Positions 28,230 to 35,763 of a stretch of 44,937 nt of DNA are shown here, one piece after another (position 1 is the stretch's first letter; each line of letters opens with the position of its first letter). Below the pieces are notes generated by a model that saw only the letters and a list, made by a program, of their open reading frames with translations, did not search any database and was not told the origin of the DNA. The stretch comes from Planctomycetota bacterium (lineage in GTDB: Bacteria > Planctomycetota > Phycisphaerae > SM23-33): positions 1 to 44,937 of the forward strand of contig JAKPKY010000205.1 of the NCBI GenBank assembly GCA_029553505.1, written 5' to 3'. Position numbers and translations under genes: made by a program.

Positions 28230-28263
28230 GATCCGCACAGCCGGTCAAGGTGAGATTCGCGTG

Positions 28264-29898
28264 ATGAACTTCGCGGGCCGTGGGATTTTGGCAATTGCCG
28301 CCGTGGGGGCAGTTCTTGTTTCCGCCCCCGCCTGGGGGCAGGTCCATCAACAGGACACGGGCAACGTTCTGGACGCCAACCCCCTGGTCGGAAGCGGCGG
28401 GGCGAACGTCCCCGTCGGCGGACAGCGGATCAACAGCCAACTCTACGTGACCGGGCAGGTCAGCGGTCTGGGGAGCTTTCGCGGGTCGGTGGGCTATTAT
28501 GCCCCGGACCAGCTCAACATCAATCTGCCCAGCAGTCAACTCAGCACGTTCCGTCGTCAATCGGTGGGATTGCAGGATCTTTCGATGCCGACGTATCTTG
28601 CCCAGCCCTACCTGGACGCCAGCCAGACCGCACTGGGCGCCTACTCGATCAGTCGCGGCGCGACGATGCCCGGGACGAACATTCCGTTGACACCTTACGT
28701 CGATGCGGCGGTGGGGCGCACGCTCTACACCGCGCCGGCGGAGGCGTACAAGAGTCTCATGGTCCCCGAGGGCGGGGCTCTGGGATCGCCGTTGTCGGCG
28801 CCGCTGATTGCGCCGGAGGTTTCGCTGGCCGCCCCGGGCGCCGCGCCCGCCAGCGGAAACGCCCCCTCGCTGTTCGGCATCCTGCGTCCGAAAGACCGCG
28901 AAGAACTGGCCAAAGACCTGTATGAGTTTGGCGCCCAGGACACCCGGTTGAAAGAAGTGCTGGACACGAGGACGGACTCGGAGATTACCGGCCCGCGCGA
29001 AACCCCCGAGCAGACGGCCGAGAAACTGGAGACGATCCAGGGACGTACCCCCGAAAAAGGAGAAAAGACCGGCGCCCCGACGCCCAATCAGGACGCATTC
29101 CTGGACCTGCTGGTGCAATTGGGACGCCGGGAAAGCGGCGAACTGGTGTCGACGGAACAGCCCGAGCTGACTCCTCCGGACCTGGAAACGCTTGAAACCG
29201 TTCAACCACCCCAACCCCCGAAGCCGGAAAAGAAGCCGACGGAAACCCCGTCGGAGGACAATGAGACGGAAGCTGCCGCGAAGCCGAGGCAAACTCCGTC
29301 GGCGATGACCACGCCCCCCCTCGTTTCTGTCGATGCCAACCGTCAGGTGGTGATCCTCGCCCTGGCCGGACGCGGACGCGACCTGTTCAACCGCTACATG
29401 CGATCCGGGGAGAGCCTGCTGAAGCGAGGGCGGTATTACCAGGCGGCGGAGGAGTTTCGTCAGGCCGGCGCGATCGACCCGAAGAACCCCTTGCCGCTGT
29501 TGGGGCGGGGAACCGCCTTGTTGATTGCGGGTGAGCCCATCAGCGCCGCCTTCAACCTCCGCAGGGGGATGGAGGTGTATCCGCCGGTGATGGAGGCCCG
29601 CCCGGAGTTCCTCTCGAAGGCGCCCCAGGAAGATGTCCAGCGGGCGATTTCCCGCCTGGACGGACGACTGGCCGCGGACCCCGCCCGTCACCGCGTCGAG
29701 ATGCTCCTTCTGGCGGCCTTCGCCCACCACGGCATGGGCCAGCGGGACCAGGCGGCGCAGTGCGCCCGGCAACTTCGCGATGTGGCGGGAACCGACAAAC
29801 TCGCCGCTGCGTATGCCGAGTTTCTCCTGACGGGTCGGCGCCCCGACACTCGCGCCCCGACCACCCAGCCGAGCGGCGTAACCACCCGGGCCAAGTGA
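28264..29898 (+). CDS. Secreted TPR-like protein
   Basis: The protein has 544 residues. A signal peptide (MNFAGRGILAIAAVGAVLVS, cut near APAWGQ) directs export. Residues 30-170 are Gly/Asn/Gln-rich with many short repeats (RINSQLYVTGQVSGLGSFRG). Residues 180-370 are a Pro/Glu/Thr-rich low-complexity region. The C-terminus (about 375-520) holds TPR-like helices: GESLLKRGRYYQAAEEFRQA, NPLPLLGRGTALLIAGEP and MLLLAAFAHHGMGQRDQAAQ. Such proteins act as envelope scaffolds; no specific role is recognised. The start is GTG ATG; the ATG is chosen, and AAGGTGA lies about 12 bases upstream. It follows the small basic gene in a probable operon. Confidence 0.75.
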   Translation: MNFAGRGILAIAAVGAVLVSAPAWGQVHQQDTGNVLDANPLVGSGGANVPVGGQRINSQLYVTGQVSGLGSFRGSVGYYAPDQLNINLPSSQLSTFRRQSVGLQDLSMPTYLAQPYLDASQTALGAYSISRGATMPGTNIPLTPYVDAAVGRTLYTAPAEAYKSLMVPEGGALGSPLSAPLIAPEVSLAAPGAAPASGNAPSLFGILRPKDREELAKDLYEFGAQDTRLKEVLDTRTDSEITGPRETPEQTAEKLETIQGRTPEKGEKTGAPTPNQDAFLDLLVQLGRRESGELVSTEQPELTPPDLETLETVQPPQPPKPEKKPTETPSEDNETEAAAKPRQTPSAMTTPPLVSVDANRQVVILALAGRGRDLFNRYMRSGESLLKRGRYYQAAEEFRQAGAIDPKNPLPLLGRGTALLIAGEPISAAFNLRRGMEVYPPVMEARPEFLSKAPQEDVQRAISRLDGRLAADPARHRVEMLLLAAFAHHGMGQRDQAAQCARQLRDVAGTDKLAAAYAEFLLTGRRPDTRAPTTQPSGVTTRAK

Positions 29899-29910: not shown

Positions 29911-31875
29911 TCACGAACCCACGCGTGGGGAATTGCCTTTCCGCGACGCGCCTTCAACCTGAAGGTTGAAGTGCCGGATCATCGCGCGAAGCTGGCTCAG
30001 CGACCATGCAATGTAGGCCTCGCCGTGCGAGGGCTTTCCGCGGCGTTCCGTCATGAGCCCCGCGTGGATGTTGCCCAGGAACTCCTCCACCTCCTCGTCG
30101 GGGATCGCGGTGGGGCAACGGCCCCATTCGAGCAGGGCGTCGAAGAGCTTGCGATGCCGCCGGCTGGCCTCGTACTGCGCGGGCGTCAGGAAGCTTCCCG
30201 GGCGCAGGTGAATCTGGAGGCCCTTGAGCGCCATCGCCACCGGTTCGTAGTTCAGCTCGGGCGAGAGGCGCAGGAAGCGGAACTGCTGCACGTACAATCC
30301 GCGCGAGTGGGGATCCCCGGCGACGTCGTAGGTGTCGGAAATTTCCCGGCTGCGCCGTTTGGAGATGTCGGAAAACAGAAGGTGGTGGTTGCCCGGTTCC
30401 GTGGAGGAAATCTCGCCGGAGGTCAGGCGCGTGACCTGGAACTTTCCGCCGTTTCGCTCCGCGCCGCCGGCGAGGGCGAACAGGCACTTCAGGATCGGCA
30501 ACGGCAGCAGGCGGTCGCGCACGGGGCGGTGCTGGCTGCGAAGCTGGAGCGAGATGTGCACGCTGTGGGGACGGACGGCGTAGAAACGGCAGGCCTCGTG
30601 GATGAACTGGTTCAGCAGCCAGGGGTCGTCCGTGATCGGTTTGGACAGGTTCGCCTGGAGCGAGACGTTCCCCAGGGCGACCTCGAAGAACCCGCGCCGC
30701 TGTCGGGGCGAGACCTTCTCGCGGTGGTCGTCCACGTGCCCGCCGAGTTTCCAGGTCAGCGCGTCCAGGGCGAAGTCGCTGAAATACAGGAATCCGTCGT
30801 AGACGCGGTCGCGCAGGGACTGCCCCTGCGGGTCGCGGATCACCGCGTGCCCGATGTTGGAGAACTCCAGTTCCGTGCCCAGCGGAATGTGCCCGCGACC
30901 CATGTGCGACCGGAGGAACTGGAGGTGCTGCTTGGCGGACTGCTGACTGTAAATGGCGTCGGACGCGCGGACCGCCCACGAGACGTAATCCACCAGCGGG
31001 TCGCGCCCGAATTTCAGGTCTGTCATGCAGTCGCCCACCAGGATGTCCAGCAGGGGGGCGTTCTCGTTGAGCATCCGCAGCGCCGCCAGCGAACTGACCG
31101 TCCGCTCGTAATACTGCTCACCGAGGTCCATGTGGTCGATCTCGTAGCGGAACTCGCGACGGATGTTTTCCTCGAACTCGTTGAAGAGGACCTGGCGGAC
31201 GACCATGGCCAGGTAGTTCGGCGCGAGGGTTTGCGCCTCGGCATCGCGGCTGAGCGGACCGAAGTCGCGCAGCGGATGCTCCTTGAGGGTGCGGCGGATG
31301 GCGTAATCGCTGATGCCCCCGGCGTCGAAATGCCGGCGGACCAGGTCGCGGATCGTCGCGCCGTGCAGTTCGCCCATGGCGCGGCGGGCGACGGCCTGGT
31401 CGGTCTTGAGCTGTTCCAGCTCGCTTTCCCGCAGCGCCGCCTCGATCTTCTCGCGGAGCAGGATCTCCTGCTTCAGCGGGTCGCGGAAGGCGTATCCGAA
31501 CGAGTGCTCAAGCTGCTTGAGCTTCCCGACGAAGGCGTAGCACGTCTCGGTGGTCGAGGCGGTCTGCACCGTGACCTTCTTGCGCGAGTAGTTCCGCCCC
31601 TCGTATTTTCTCAGCGCGCTCATGCAGACGGCGGGCAGCGGCCCGATGACGTACCCGCGGATGCGCCCGTGGCGTTCCGGCACGGCATACAGGTACGTGT
31701 GGTCGGGGCTGATCTTCTTGTACCCATCGAGCACCGCATCGCGCGCGAGGAACGCCTCCACGCCGTCGGCGTCGGCCGCCTGCGTCACCAGGCGCTTGCC
31801 CAGCACCGCCCGGAACACCGAGGGATCCATCAGCGTTCCATACACGAACAGGTTGAAAGGTTCGTTGTTCGCCAT
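29911..31875 (-). CDS. GGCT-like domain fused to a putative GS-fold amidoligase
   Basis: The protein has 654 residues and no signal peptide. Residues 8-118 match the gamma-glutamylcyclotransferase/AIG2 fold: FVYGTLM (10-16) and KYEGRNYSRKKVTV with the expected catalytic Glu at E92. A charged helical linker spans about 125-320. From 326 the sequence GRGHIPLGTELEFSNIG (GxExEF type, E335 and E337), then VHISLQL (439-445) and QFRFLRLSPE (531-540) resemble glutamine-synthetase-fold amidoligases. Published genomic surveys report such ligases linked to GGCT domains in peptide or amine-glutamylation pathways. The two activities could add and remove a glutamyl group. GGAG lies 5 bases before the ATG. 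Divergent from the radical SAM gene. The ligase assignment rests on short motifs. Confidence 0.6.
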   Translation of the reverse strand: MANNEPFNLFVYGTLMDPSVFRAVLGKRLVTQAADADGVEAFLARDAVLDGYKKISPDHTYLYAVPERHGRIRGYVIGPLPAVCMSALRKYEGRNYSRKKVTVQTASTTETCYAFVGKLKQLEHSFGYAFRDPLKQEILLREKIEAALRESELEQLKTDQAVARRAMGELHGATIRDLVRRHFDAGGISDYAIRRTLKEHPLRDFGPLSRDAEAQTLAPNYLAMVVRQVLFNEFEENIRREFRYEIDHMDLGEQYYERTVSSLAALRMLNENAPLLDILVGDCMTDLKFGRDPLVDYVSWAVRASDAIYSQQSAKQHLQFLRSHMGRGHIPLGTELEFSNIGHAVIRDPQGQSLRDRVYDGFLYFSDFALDALTWKLGGHVDDHREKVSPRQRRGFFEVALGNVSLQANLSKPITDDPWLLNQFIHEACRFYAVRPHSVHISLQLRSQHRPVRDRLLPLPILKCLFALAGGAERNGGKFQVTRLTSGEISSTEPGNHHLLFSDISKRRSREISDTYDVAGDPHSRGLYVQQFRFLRLSPELNYEPVAMALKGLQIHLRPGSFLTPAQYEASRRHRKLFDALLEWGRCPTAIPDEEVEEFLGNIHAGLMTERRGKPSHGEAYIAWSLSQLRAMIRHFNLQVEGASRKGNSPRVGS

Positions 31876-31896
31876 CGTCGCTCCGAATGTCGCCGT

Positions 31897-31925
31897 ATTG
31901 TATCGCTTGGCGGCGGGGGCTCAAA
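31897..31925 (-). promoter_or_regulatory. Promoter of the GGCT-amidoligase gene
   Basis: On the minus strand TTTGAG (31925-31920), 17 bases, TACAAT (31902-31897). It overlaps the opposing radical SAM promoter. Confidence 0.45.
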
Positions 31926-31934
31926 GCGTACAAT
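31907..31934 (+). promoter_or_regulatory. Promoter of the radical SAM gene, leaderless
   Basis: TTGGCG (31907-31912), 16 bases, TACAAT (31929-31934). Six bases separate the -10 from ATG 31941, so the transcript would start at or next to the start codon. Confidence 0.5.
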
Positions 31935-31940
31935 GGCGGC

Positions 31941-32957
31941 ATGAACGGCCGGCGTCCCCTTCAACGGGGCGAAAAGATGCCCGTGAAACACTGGTCCTTC
32001 GCGGGGTTGGTGCTCACCTACTGGTGCAACGCGCGCTGCGCGTCGTGCTATCTGCGGTGCGCGCCGGAGCGCGGCGAGCCGATGTCCGCCGATTCCGCCA
32101 TCGAACTATGGCGCCAGCTTATCGAGGCGTCGCCGCACGGTTGCCGGATCCACCTCGGTGGGGGCGAGCCGTTCGGCGATTGGCCGACGCTGCTGGAAAT
32201 CTGCCGGCGGGCGAAGACTGCGGGCCTCGCGCCGCTGGAGAAGATCGAGACCAACGCCTTCTGGGCCTGCGACGAACCGACCGTGCGCGACCGTTTGCGG
32301 GCGCTGGACGATGCCGGCATGGGCAAGCTCTGCATCTCGGCCGACCCGTACCACCAGCAGTTCGTGCCGATCGACCGCTGCCGCCTGGCGGCGCGGGTGG
32401 CGAGCGAACTGCTCGGCGCGGATCGTGTGCAGGTTCGCTGGCGGGACTGGCTGGCCGCGGGATTCGATACGGCCGAAATGGACGACGCGGTGCGGGGGCG
32501 GCTTTTTGGTCGATACGCCGAATCCGGGCGCGACCGGTTGAACGGGCGGGCGGCGGAATGCCTCGCGCCGCGGTTGCAACGAAAGAATCCCGCTCATTTC
32601 GCCGATACCTCCTGTGCGGAGGCGATCTTACGTTCCCGCCACGTCCATGTGGACGCTGCGGGGCGGGTCATGCCCGGCACCTGTGCGGGCATCCTGCTGG
32701 GTCGCCTGAGCGACCGAACAAGTGTCCGCCAGATATGGGAATCGCTTGCGGCGGACCACGCGGTTCGGCCGATCGTCGGAACCTTGGCCCGCGCCGGACC
32801 GGTGGGATTGATGCAACTGGCGAAGCCGGCTGGGTTTGTTCCGTCCCCGCAGGGCTATGCCGGCAAGTGCCACCTGTGCTGGGAAATCCGGCGTCGCCTG
32901 GTGGAAGTCGGCGAGTTTCCGGACGAATTAGGCCCGGTTTGGATGTATGAAAAGTGA
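31941..32957 (+). CDS. Radical SAM protein of unknown substrate
   Basis: The protein has 338 residues. The [4Fe-4S] motif CxxxCxxC is C29, C33 and C36 (YWCNARCASCYLRC). The SAM-binding GGE-type motif is HLGGGEPFGDW and the strand motif KIETNAFWA follows. Extra cysteines near the C-terminus (GTCAGILLGRL; GKCHLCWEIRRRLV) suggest an auxiliary cluster as in SPASM/Twitch proteins. The start at 31941 is supported by the -10 box 6 bases upstream; an ATG at 31977 would shorten it by 12 residues. It shares a 65-base divergent intergenic region with the amidoligase fusion, suggesting a joint pathway, possibly a peptide or cofactor modification. No precursor-peptide gene is evident. Confidence 0.82.
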   Translation: MNGRRPLQRGEKMPVKHWSFAGLVLTYWCNARCASCYLRCAPERGEPMSADSAIELWRQLIEASPHGCRIHLGGGEPFGDWPTLLEICRRAKTAGLAPLEKIETNAFWACDEPTVRDRLRALDDAGMGKLCISADPYHQQFVPIDRCRLAARVASELLGADRVQVRWRDWLAAGFDTAEMDDAVRGRLFGRYAESGRDRLNGRAAECLAPRLQRKNPAHFADTSCAEAILRSRHVHVDAAGRVMPGTCAGILLGRLSDRTSVRQIWESLAADHAVRPIVGTLARAGPVGLMQLAKPAGFVPSPQGYAGKCHLCWEIRRRLVEVGEFPDELGPVWMYEK

Positions 32958-33052
32958 CGGACGTTTTGCAGGGAATTGAAACCCCCGTCCGTTTGCGCCG
33001 TACAATAAGAAAACAGAGGACTTGGGAACCAGCAAGGCGTTCCGATTGCCTG

Positions 33053-33081
33053 TTGACGGGCGAAACAGGCAAGAGTATGGT
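33053..33081 (+). promoter_or_regulatory. Promoter of the Ser/Thr kinase gene
   Basis: TTGACG (33053-33058), 17 bases, TATGGT (33076-33081). The stem GCCTGTT/AACAGGC (33048-33070) overlaps the -35 and spacer and might be an operator. The 216-base gap after the radical SAM gene also holds TACAAT at 33001 and no gene. Confidence 0.5.
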
Positions 33082-33173
33082 ACCCCGATTCTTGCGGGAA
33101 AGGATGCCCGTATGCAAGTCAGTCGAATTCTACGTCGTGCCTTGGGTGCAACCCCGGACCGGCACGTTGGAAA

Positions 33174-34481
33174 ATGCTTATGATGGCCGATGGCGACAAG
33201 TCTTCATCGGGCAGATCGGAAGCTCCGGCGGGGAATTCCTCCGCAGCCGGAAAATCCGCGGCGTTTCGCAAGGCGAACTCCTCGATGGACAGCGAACTGG
33301 GACGGCAGGTGCTGGACCAGGGACTGGCCACGCGAGAGGAAGTCGAGCAGTGTCTCCAGCAGGCGTCCGCCGACAGCCAGAAAAGCCTCGCCGACGTACT
33401 CATCGGAAACGGCGTCGTCACCCAGCGCCAGATCGACCGCATCAAGCAGGGAATCGAGGAGACCCGCAAGGGGCAACAGATTCCCGGGTACCAGATTCTC
33501 TCGAAGTTGGGCGCCGGCGCGATGGCGACGGTGTTCAAAGCGCGGCAACTGAGCCTGGACCGGGTCGTGGCGATCAAGGTTCTTCCGCGACGGTTCAGTG
33601 AGAATCCTGAATACGTGGATCGGTTCTACAAGGAAGGCAAGGCCGCCGCCAAGCTGAACCACGCGAACATCGTTCAGGCCATCGACGTCGGGGAGGCGGG
33701 GGGCTATCACTACTTCGTGATGGAATTCGTGGAAGGTCGGACCGTCTACGACGACATCGCCGAAGGAAAAGCCTACACCGAGGCCGAGGCGCTGCGCATC
33801 ATCCTCCAGATCACCCGGGCGCTGAAGCACGCGCACGCGGTCGGGCTGATCCACCGCGACGTGAAGCCCAAGAACATCATGCTCACGCCCGAGGGAGTGG
33901 CCAAGCTGGCGGACATGGGCCTGGCGCGCGGCGCGGAAGACGTGGAGGCCGCCAAGGCCGAGGCGGGACGCGCCTTCGGAACCCCGTACTACATCAGCCC
34001 CGAGCAGATTCGCGGCGAGGTGGACATCGACTTCCGCGCGGACATCTACTCCCTCGGCGCGACGCTCTACCACATGGTGACCGGTCGCGTTCCGTTCGAG
34101 GCGCCGACGCCCGCCGCCGTCATGCATAAGCATCTCAAGGAGCCGTTGATCCCGCCCGACCACGTGAACACCAGCCTGTCCAGCGGGCTGGGCGAGGTGG
34201 TCGAGGTCATGATGGCCAAGGATCGCAACCGCCGGTACCGTTCGACCGCCGATCTGCTGCTGGACCTCGAGGCGATCGCGGCGGGCCAGCCGCCGCTCCA
34301 GGCGCGAAAGCAGATTGACGCGCAGATTCTGACCGGCTTGGCGGGCGAGGCCCAGCCTGACGCGGAAGCGTCCGGACCGCCCGTCCCCGCGCCGTGCGGC
34401 GTCCTGAAGGTCGCGGTCATCATTCTCGCGGCCGTGCTGGCAGCGAGCCTCATCCTCAACCTCGTCCAGGCGCTGTCCTGA
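33174..34481 (+). CDS. Membrane-anchored Ser/Thr protein kinase
   Basis: This 435-residue Hanks-type kinase has all key residues: GAGAMATVFKA (P-loop), K135 in VAIKVL, D229 in HRDVKPKNIML, and DMG (D247) in place of DFG, followed by FGTPYYISPEQ. The N-terminus (about 38-92, GLATREEVEQCLQQ; GVVTQRQIDRIKQG) resembles the GspE/MshEN-like modules seen at the front of planctomycete kinases. A single TM helix (about 411-432, VIILAAVLAASLILNLVQAL) ends the protein, so the kinase domain is cytoplasmic and there is no extracellular sensor. The start is uncertain (33174, 33180 or 33285). It precedes two STAS proteins and an RsbW-like protein, which it might control. Confidence 0.92.
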   Translation: MLMMADGDKSSSGRSEAPAGNSSAAGKSAAFRKANSSMDSELGRQVLDQGLATREEVEQCLQQASADSQKSLADVLIGNGVVTQRQIDRIKQGIEETRKGQQIPGYQILSKLGAGAMATVFKARQLSLDRVVAIKVLPRRFSENPEYVDRFYKEGKAAAKLNHANIVQAIDVGEAGGYHYFVMEFVEGRTVYDDIAEGKAYTEAEALRIILQITRALKHAHAVGLIHRDVKPKNIMLTPEGVAKLADMGLARGAEDVEAAKAEAGRAFGTPYYISPEQIRGEVDIDFRADIYSLGATLYHMVTGRVPFEAPTPAAVMHKHLKEPLIPPDHVNTSLSSGLGEVVEVMMAKDRNRRYRSTADLLLDLEAIAAGQPPLQARKQIDAQILTGLAGEAQPDAEASGPPVPAPCGVLKVAVIILAAVLAASLILNLVQALS

Positions 34482-34605: not shown

Positions 34606-34965
34606 ATGCGAGAGCAGACGCCGCGAGTCAAAGTTTCTGTCGAGAACGGGGTCACCGTCGTGACCCTGACCGACCGGAAAATCCTGGATGAAATCAGCAT
34701 CACGCAGATCGGGGAGCAGCTCTACGCCCTGGTGGCCGAGGCAAAAGTGCCCAAACTCGTGCTGGACTTCCAGAGCGTTTCGCACATGTCGTCCAGCGCC
34801 CTGGGGATGCTGATCACCCTGCACAAGCGGGTGCGCGAGAAGAAGGGGGAAATGCGGATGTGCAACATTCAGCCGGCCATCTACGAGGTGTTCGTCATCA
34901 CCCGACTGAACGAGATTTTCCAGATCAGCGAGTCCAAGCAGGACGCCGTCAAGAGCCTGACGTGA
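34606..34965 (+). CDS. STAS-domain anti-sigma-factor antagonist
   Basis: This 119-residue single STAS domain has the SpoIIAA/RsbV pattern: a beta start (VENGVTVVTLTDRKILDE), LVLDFQSVSHMSSSALGML with the expected phosphorylatable Ser, and a C-terminal helix. Such proteins bind an anti-sigma kinase when unphosphorylated, releasing a sigma factor. AGGAG lies 7-9 bases before the ATG. It is the first gene of a three-gene module with an RsbW-like protein and a second STAS protein. Confidence 0.9.
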   Translation: MREQTPRVKVSVENGVTVVTLTDRKILDEISITQIGEQLYALVAEAKVPKLVLDFQSVSHMSSSALGMLITLHKRVREKKGEMRMCNIQPAIYEVFVITRLNEIFQISESKQDAVKSLT

Positions 34966-34978
34966 ACCGTCCGGACGC

Positions 34979-35395
34979 ATGCGCGATCCGAAAACAACGC
35001 GGGATTCCATGGTAATACCTTCGGAACTCAATGCCGCGAGGGCGTTCGAGGAACGGGTCCTTCGCGAGGTCGCCCGGCATGGCTACAGCGAGGCCGCCAT
35101 GTTCGCGATCCGCCTTGCGCTGGAGGAAGGGCTCAACAACGCCATCAAGCACGGCAACCGCGGGGATCCGAAAAAGAAGATCACGGTCGACTGCGACGTC
35201 GACGCCGACCGCGCGACGATCACGATTTGCGACGAGGGCACGGGATTCGATCCCACGCGGGTGCCCGACCCGACCGCCGACGAGAACCTCGAGAAGCCCA
35301 GCGGGCGGGGACTGATGCTCATGAGGGCGTACATGGATGAAGTACGCTACAATGACCGTGGAAACCAGGTCTTTCTGATGAAGCGCAACACGTAA
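34979..35395 (+). CDS. RsbW-like anti-sigma factor ATPase/kinase
   Basis: This 138-residue GHKL-type protein has ALEEGLNNAIKHGN (N box), ICDEGTGFDP (G1) and SGRGLMLMRAYMDEV (G2). Family members bind a sigma factor or phosphorylate a STAS partner. The ATG at 34979 is 13 bases after the preceding stop; a later in-frame ATG at 35009 is possible. No sigma-factor gene is adjacent, so the target is either elsewhere or not a sigma factor. Its position between two STAS genes suggests it switches between them. Confidence 0.9.
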   Translation: MRDPKTTRDSMVIPSELNAARAFEERVLREVARHGYSEAAMFAIRLALEEGLNNAIKHGNRGDPKKKITVDCDVDADRATITICDEGTGFDPTRVPDPTADENLEKPSGRGLMLMRAYMDEVRYNDRGNQVFLMKRNT

Positions 35396-35406
35396 GGACG
35401 CCTGTC

Positions 35407-35763
35407 ATGGCCGAGATGTCGTCCAGAAATCCGCTTGCGATGGACGTTCGGCAGATCGGGGGCGCAACGGTGGTGACGGTGAACGGTTCCGCCGGCATGA
35501 GCGAGGCCGAGCGAATGCGCGCCGCGCTGGAAGGGCTCGCTGCCGATCGGACACCGGTGATCGTGCTCGATCTCAGCCGGATGGATTTCATCTGCTCGAC
35601 GGGGTTGGGCGCGATCATCGCCGGGCATCTCAAGTGCCGCCACCACGCCGGGCAGATCCGGCTGGTGAATCCCCAGCCGGCCGTCAAGAAGCTGCTCGAA
35701 ACCACCCGCCTGACGAAGCTGTTCCCGATCTATCGCACCGTGGAGCAGGCCGTACAAAGCTGA
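35407..35763 (+). CDS. Second STAS-domain protein
   Basis: The protein has 118 residues: VRQIGGATVVTVNGSAGMSE, IVLDLSRMDFICSTGLGAII with the candidate Ser in CSTGLG, and a C-terminal helix (VKKLLETTRLTKLF). It is not a close copy of the first STAS protein, so the two probably have different partners or signals. It lies 11 bases downstream of the RsbW-like gene, and the next gene (pta) converges on it. Confidence 0.88.
   Translation: MAEMSSRNPLAMDVRQIGGATVVTVNGSAGMSEAERMRAALEGLAADRTPVIVLDLSRMDFICSTGLGAIIAGHLKCRHHAGQIRLVNPQPAVKKLLETTRLTKLFPIYRTVEQAVQS

Follow-up and report, generated by a model that had tools for sequence, protein, structure and literature searches.

A Phycisphaerae protein joining a GGACT-type cyclotransferase domain to a predicted GS-fold ligase-like domain, and its probably independent radical SAM neighbour

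The window, a 44,937-nucleotide stretch of DNA from a Planctomycetota bacterium of the class Phycisphaerae (contig JAKPKY010000205.1), contains a gene (29911..31875, minus strand) for a 654-residue protein in which a GGACT domain, a helical domain and a predicted GS-fold ligase-like domain are joined. This fusion is probably a bifunctional enzyme that makes and breaks glutamyl bonds, and the divergent radical SAM gene beside it (31887..32957, plus strand) would be separate from it and belong with the neighbouring kinase gene. The 654-residue ORF and the motifs quoted for it in the initial annotation (FVYGTLM, E92, GTELEF at 333-338, VHISLQL and RFLRLSPE) are all present. Whole-genome searches detected homologues at 36-96% identity, nearly all of them full-length, in 73 of 298 Phycisphaerae genomes, most of which keep the length of the protein end to end. 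Given these full-length homologues, the fusion frame is the gene and the long antisense ORF is not. Wider sampling of Planctomycetota found homologues confined to Phycisphaerae, and most of the named relatives in the collection of genomes are MAGs of Phycisphaerae and Sedimentisphaerales. The records of a few relatives are titled Actinomycetota or Actinomycetes; those among the whole-genome searches belong to the same class, Phycisphaerae. A phage or plasmid origin was rejected, with zero relatives among viral contigs, phages and plasmids. The AF2 model of the whole 654-residue protein has a pLDDT of 87 and a pTM of 0.88.

The N-terminal part of the protein is an AIG2/GGACT gamma-glutamyl cyclotransferase domain (residues 8-116; 31528..31854, minus strand). 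The Pfam family GGACT (PF06094) matched the fusion with an E value of 2.4e-9 and 38.2 bits, against a curated cut-off of 22.8, and was matched in 20 of 20 homologues. A profile search against the PDB matched the domain to 2g0q/2jqv, and Foldseek with the full-length model returned GGCT/GGACT structures at a probability of 1.0. Alignment of the homologues revealed that F10, Y12, G13 and E92 are invariant, and both the YG[ST]L loop and the conserved Glu are present. E92 lines up with the EG of 2g0q/2jqv, and its equivalent is what we take to be the catalytic residue of the AIG2/GGACT family. The domain thus shares its fold, YGTL loop and catalytic-type glutamate with GGACT, the gamma-glutamylamine cyclotransferase, but the latter is free-standing, whereas here it is joined to a ligase-like domain.

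The region that follows, previously described as a long unassigned linker, is not disordered. Residues ~130-325 (30901..31488, minus strand) are predicted by AF2, with high confidence, to form an all-helical domain of no known family, and no Pfam match was found there in either the window copy or 20 homologues.

Predicted structure and motif order support the assignment of the C-terminal half (residues 326-646; 29938..30900, minus strand) as a GS-fold carboxylate-amine ligase-like domain. Residues 310-646 were modelled in isolation and searched with Foldseek. The top matches were PafA, Dop, glutamine synthetase, GshF and GshA, and the first 28 places were occupied by GS-fold proteins throughout. 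PafA was matched with an E value of 7e-5 and Dop with 2e-4, both at a probability of 1.00; the full-length model matched PafA at 0.99. TM values on GS-fold structures were modest (~0.3-0.44). A structure search of BFVD showed that phage amidoligases also match the fusion. No model covering the C-terminal domain was found in Pfam or NCBIfam for the window copy, or in Pfam for 20 homologues, and the GS fold therefore rests on structure prediction together with motif order. The proposal that a GGCT-type domain is joined to a GS-fold amidoligase-like domain is thus supported by Pfam, the AF2 model and Foldseek; of the checks suggested with it, structure prediction returned the GS fold, whereas sequence profiles gave no match beyond GGACT. 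Among 392 Planctomycetota genomes, every C-terminal domain detected came with a GGACT domain.

The signature of GS-fold carboxylate-amine ligases, including the GhExE motif, has been defined previously (PMC2588565). It appears to be largely present in the C-terminal domain, with two deviating positions. GTELE (333-337; 30865..30879, minus strand) corresponds to the GhExE-type metal/ATP motif: G333, E335 and E337 (GhExE / Ex[EH]) are invariant, and strand 332-338 is strand 1 of the predicted domain. The acidic residues D382 and E398 are invariant and lie on strands 379-382 and 396-399 of the model. At the [HDQ]x[NH] site of strand 4, S438xH440 is invariant, with the second position fitting and the first being Ser; the adjacent H437 is also invariant. 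At the Ex[RK]x2D / [QH]x4D site of strand 6, Q531x[RK]x2R536 is conserved, with Q531 invariant and the last position Arg instead of Asp. R483 and R507 are invariant and fall in the region of strand 5 and its preceding loop, placed by region and not by residue-level superposition. The catalytic-type residues of the domain are invariant among 20 homologues with identity down to ~37%.

Two known GS-fold groups were considered for this domain. Compared by eye, Amidoligase_2 (PF12224) shares its motif order (ExE, acidic residues, His motif and late basic motif), and phage members turn up in the structure search with the fusion. Direct profile comparison, however, was not significant: hhalign gave a probability of 0.2% and aligned the ExE stretch alone, and there was no Pfam match, so the domain was left outside this family. 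PafA and Dop are the closest solved structures and share the GhExE motif and, on the cycle proposed for the fusion, a chemistry in which an isopeptide bond is made and broken. They differ in having no recognisable sequence similarity to the fusion, in that the Pup-ligase family is unmatched across 21 relatives, and in that the opposing step in the fusion would come from the cyclotransferase domain. Pupylation itself was rejected, as Pup_ligase (PF03136) was unmatched in the bacterium's own genome and in 20 relatives.

These features are consistent with the following cycle. The C-terminal domain would hold ATP and metal via GTELE, D382/H384 and E398, and would phosphorylate a carboxylate and then join it to an amine; the likeliest such carboxylate is the gamma-carboxyl of glutamate or of a glutamyl group. 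The N-terminal domain would use E92 to cleave gamma-glutamyl amides, yielding 5-oxoproline together with the free amine. With one ligase-like half and one cyclotransferase half, we infer that a single polypeptide could make and unmake the same class of bond, and such a cycle may serve on/off control, editing or recycling for a small amine, amino sugar or peptide.

A related pairing has been reported in Firmicutes, where genes for uncharacterised GS-fold ligases adjoin genes for AIG2-family cyclotransferases; that report favours peptide or metabolite synthesis over protein tagging for these pairs (PMC2588565, 2008). The likeness lies in the functional linkage of the same two kinds of enzyme with no gene for a Pup-like small protein. 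The Firmicutes enzymes, however, are encoded by separate neighbouring genes, whereas in Phycisphaerae a single polypeptide carries both, along with an additional helical domain. Because the Firmicutes adjacency is already published, the fusion represents a known pairing of enzymes in a new architecture, and what is new here is that both are joined in one protein, with a helical domain between them. The fusion is not described among the papers listed by the literature searches, a scope that does not include the 2009 amidoligase survey, and an earlier report is possible. A deep-sea phage of Planctomycetes that has an amidoligase and a GGCT gene (PMC10945688) was set aside, as the two genes are listed separately there and are reported to have probably come from Pseudomonas. 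Since fusion of enzymes acting on the same kind of bond often marks a functional link, the protein is stronger evidence than the published gene adjacency for a tie between GS-fold ligases and AIG2 cyclotransferases. It also offers a single construct for testing make-and-break glutamyl chemistry and adds a GS-fold family missed by sequence profile libraries.

The radical SAM gene (31887..32957) is an intact ORF, and the CxxxCxxC motif and extra C-terminal cysteines claimed for its product hold up in an orthologue alignment: C47, C51 and C54, together with the later C243, C266, C328 and C331, are invariant in 44 orthologues, as are GGE and ETN. The four additional cysteines could hold an auxiliary cluster. 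For Pfam Radical_SAM, the window copy scores 29.3 bits, just under the cut-off of 29.5, and one orthologue scores above the cut-off. The listed ATG lies just 11 bp from that of the fusion. The alignment of most orthologues begins only at about residues 13-34, and the true start is therefore probably near 31941 or 31977. With orthologue-grade matches defined by an E value of at most ~1e-50, the gene was detected in 96 of 298 Phycisphaerae genomes, 36 of which have no fusion. Conversely, 13 fusion genomes have no orthologue-grade match, with fragmentary matches in several, and several near-complete genomes contain the fusion with the radical SAM orthologue absent. In L055 (UBA12270), the nearest relative, whose fusion is intact and 96% identical, the radical SAM frame is in two pieces, reflecting either real decay or an assembly error. 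In family f107 (L159-L168), the radical SAM gene follows a gene that reads by eye like MnmG/GidA.

Downstream of the radical SAM gene lies a Ser/Thr protein kinase gene (33174..34481, plus strand; Pfam Pkinase, 2e-50). A Ser/Thr kinase directly downstream and on the same strand was found at 28 of 45 radical SAM loci, spread over many families, some of them fusion-less. As most of these loci were chosen for a non-adjacent fusion, this count gauges the link to the kinase and not that to the fusion. The radical SAM protein is thus probably a separate enzyme whose gene normally travels with the kinase. No description of such a pairing was found in the literature, and its recurrence in Phycisphaerae families is a lead in its own right. 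The kinase paired with the radical SAM gene (31887-34481) bears an extra N-terminal region. It is followed by STAS, RsbW-like ATPase (by eye) and STAS genes (34606..35763, plus strand; Pfam STAS for the two outer genes), an order conserved in the window's family, and this set looks like a partner-switching regulatory module.

The initial annotation had proposed that the fusion could work with the radical SAM enzyme to make a modified peptide, amine or cofactor. In keeping with this, the two genes are adjacent, and always divergent, in 10 genomes including that of the window, and are separated by one intervening gene in 2 more; their co-occurrence is above expectation, with an odds ratio of 24 uncorrected for phylogeny. 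The radical SAM core is also weakly similar to the peptide epimerase YydG, but the corresponding NCBIfam equivalog was matched by the N-terminal part only and at 51.9 bits against a cut-off of 300. Against these points, the survey of neighbouring genes, named beforehand as the refuting test, shows that all 12 adjacent or near-adjacent cases fall within one subclade of the window's family. At least 7 further members of this family lack the adjacency, as do the sister subclade and every other family, and in a single-contig genome the two genes lie 448 kb apart. A non-exhaustive search of the radical SAM-kinase gaps, mostly 0-200 bp, for the peptide gene that such a pathway might use noticed no conserved small ORF. 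In family f108 (L220-L225), the fusion has been lost and the radical SAM gene is kept elsewhere in the genome. Because adjacency is limited to one subclade, the radical SAM gene tracks the kinase and f108 lost only the fusion, a joint pathway is very improbable, and it was rejected on gene-order history and on the genomes with one gene only. This removes a tempting but weak link, and the adjacency in the window would be a lineage-specific accident of gene order.

Another alternative is that the GS-fold half is a hydrolase or phosphatase like Dop, in which case both halves of the fusion would break bonds. Dop does stand beside PafA among the top structural matches, and two motif positions deviate, but ligases make up the majority of GS-fold relatives and the metal/ATP motif residues are invariant, which makes this reading quite unlikely. 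The make-and-break enzyme that we favour can be narrowed by the genes around the fusion in Sedimentisphaerales. At ~45 loci there, the fusion is the last gene of a tight same-strand operon, with gaps typically of ~20-60 bp, that runs from an aminotransferase through a large membrane protein, a GT2 glycosyltransferase and, with or without it, an alanine racemase (neighbours identified by Pfam). The operon is a better pointer to the role of the fusion, in the cell envelope, than the radical SAM neighbour is, although only a hint. It suggests that the fusion might act together with the glycosyltransferase and membrane protein to modify an envelope component, such as a glycan-linked or cell-wall amine. 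This narrower form is possible but on balance doubtful: the fusion protein has no membrane segment by hydropathy, the window's family lacks the operon linkage, and none of the six f1 genomes searched yielded the membrane protein. The block in f108 also survives without the fusion, comprising aminotransferase, membrane protein, GT2, mostly alanine racemase, NUDIX and glycosyltransferase-9 genes. As the operon and the radical SAM gene both persist in f108, neither strictly needs the fusion, and this natural loss is useful for comparison. More speculatively, the fusion could by itself both attach and remove gamma-glutamyl tags in Phycisphaerae, so that an amine of the envelope or of a protein is marked reversibly in a Pup-like cycle without Pup, the two arms of which share one polypeptide; we regard this as unlikely. 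On the other side of the fusion in the window, a TPR protein gene (28261-29898) is convergent with it and is kept at that spot in ~8 relatives.
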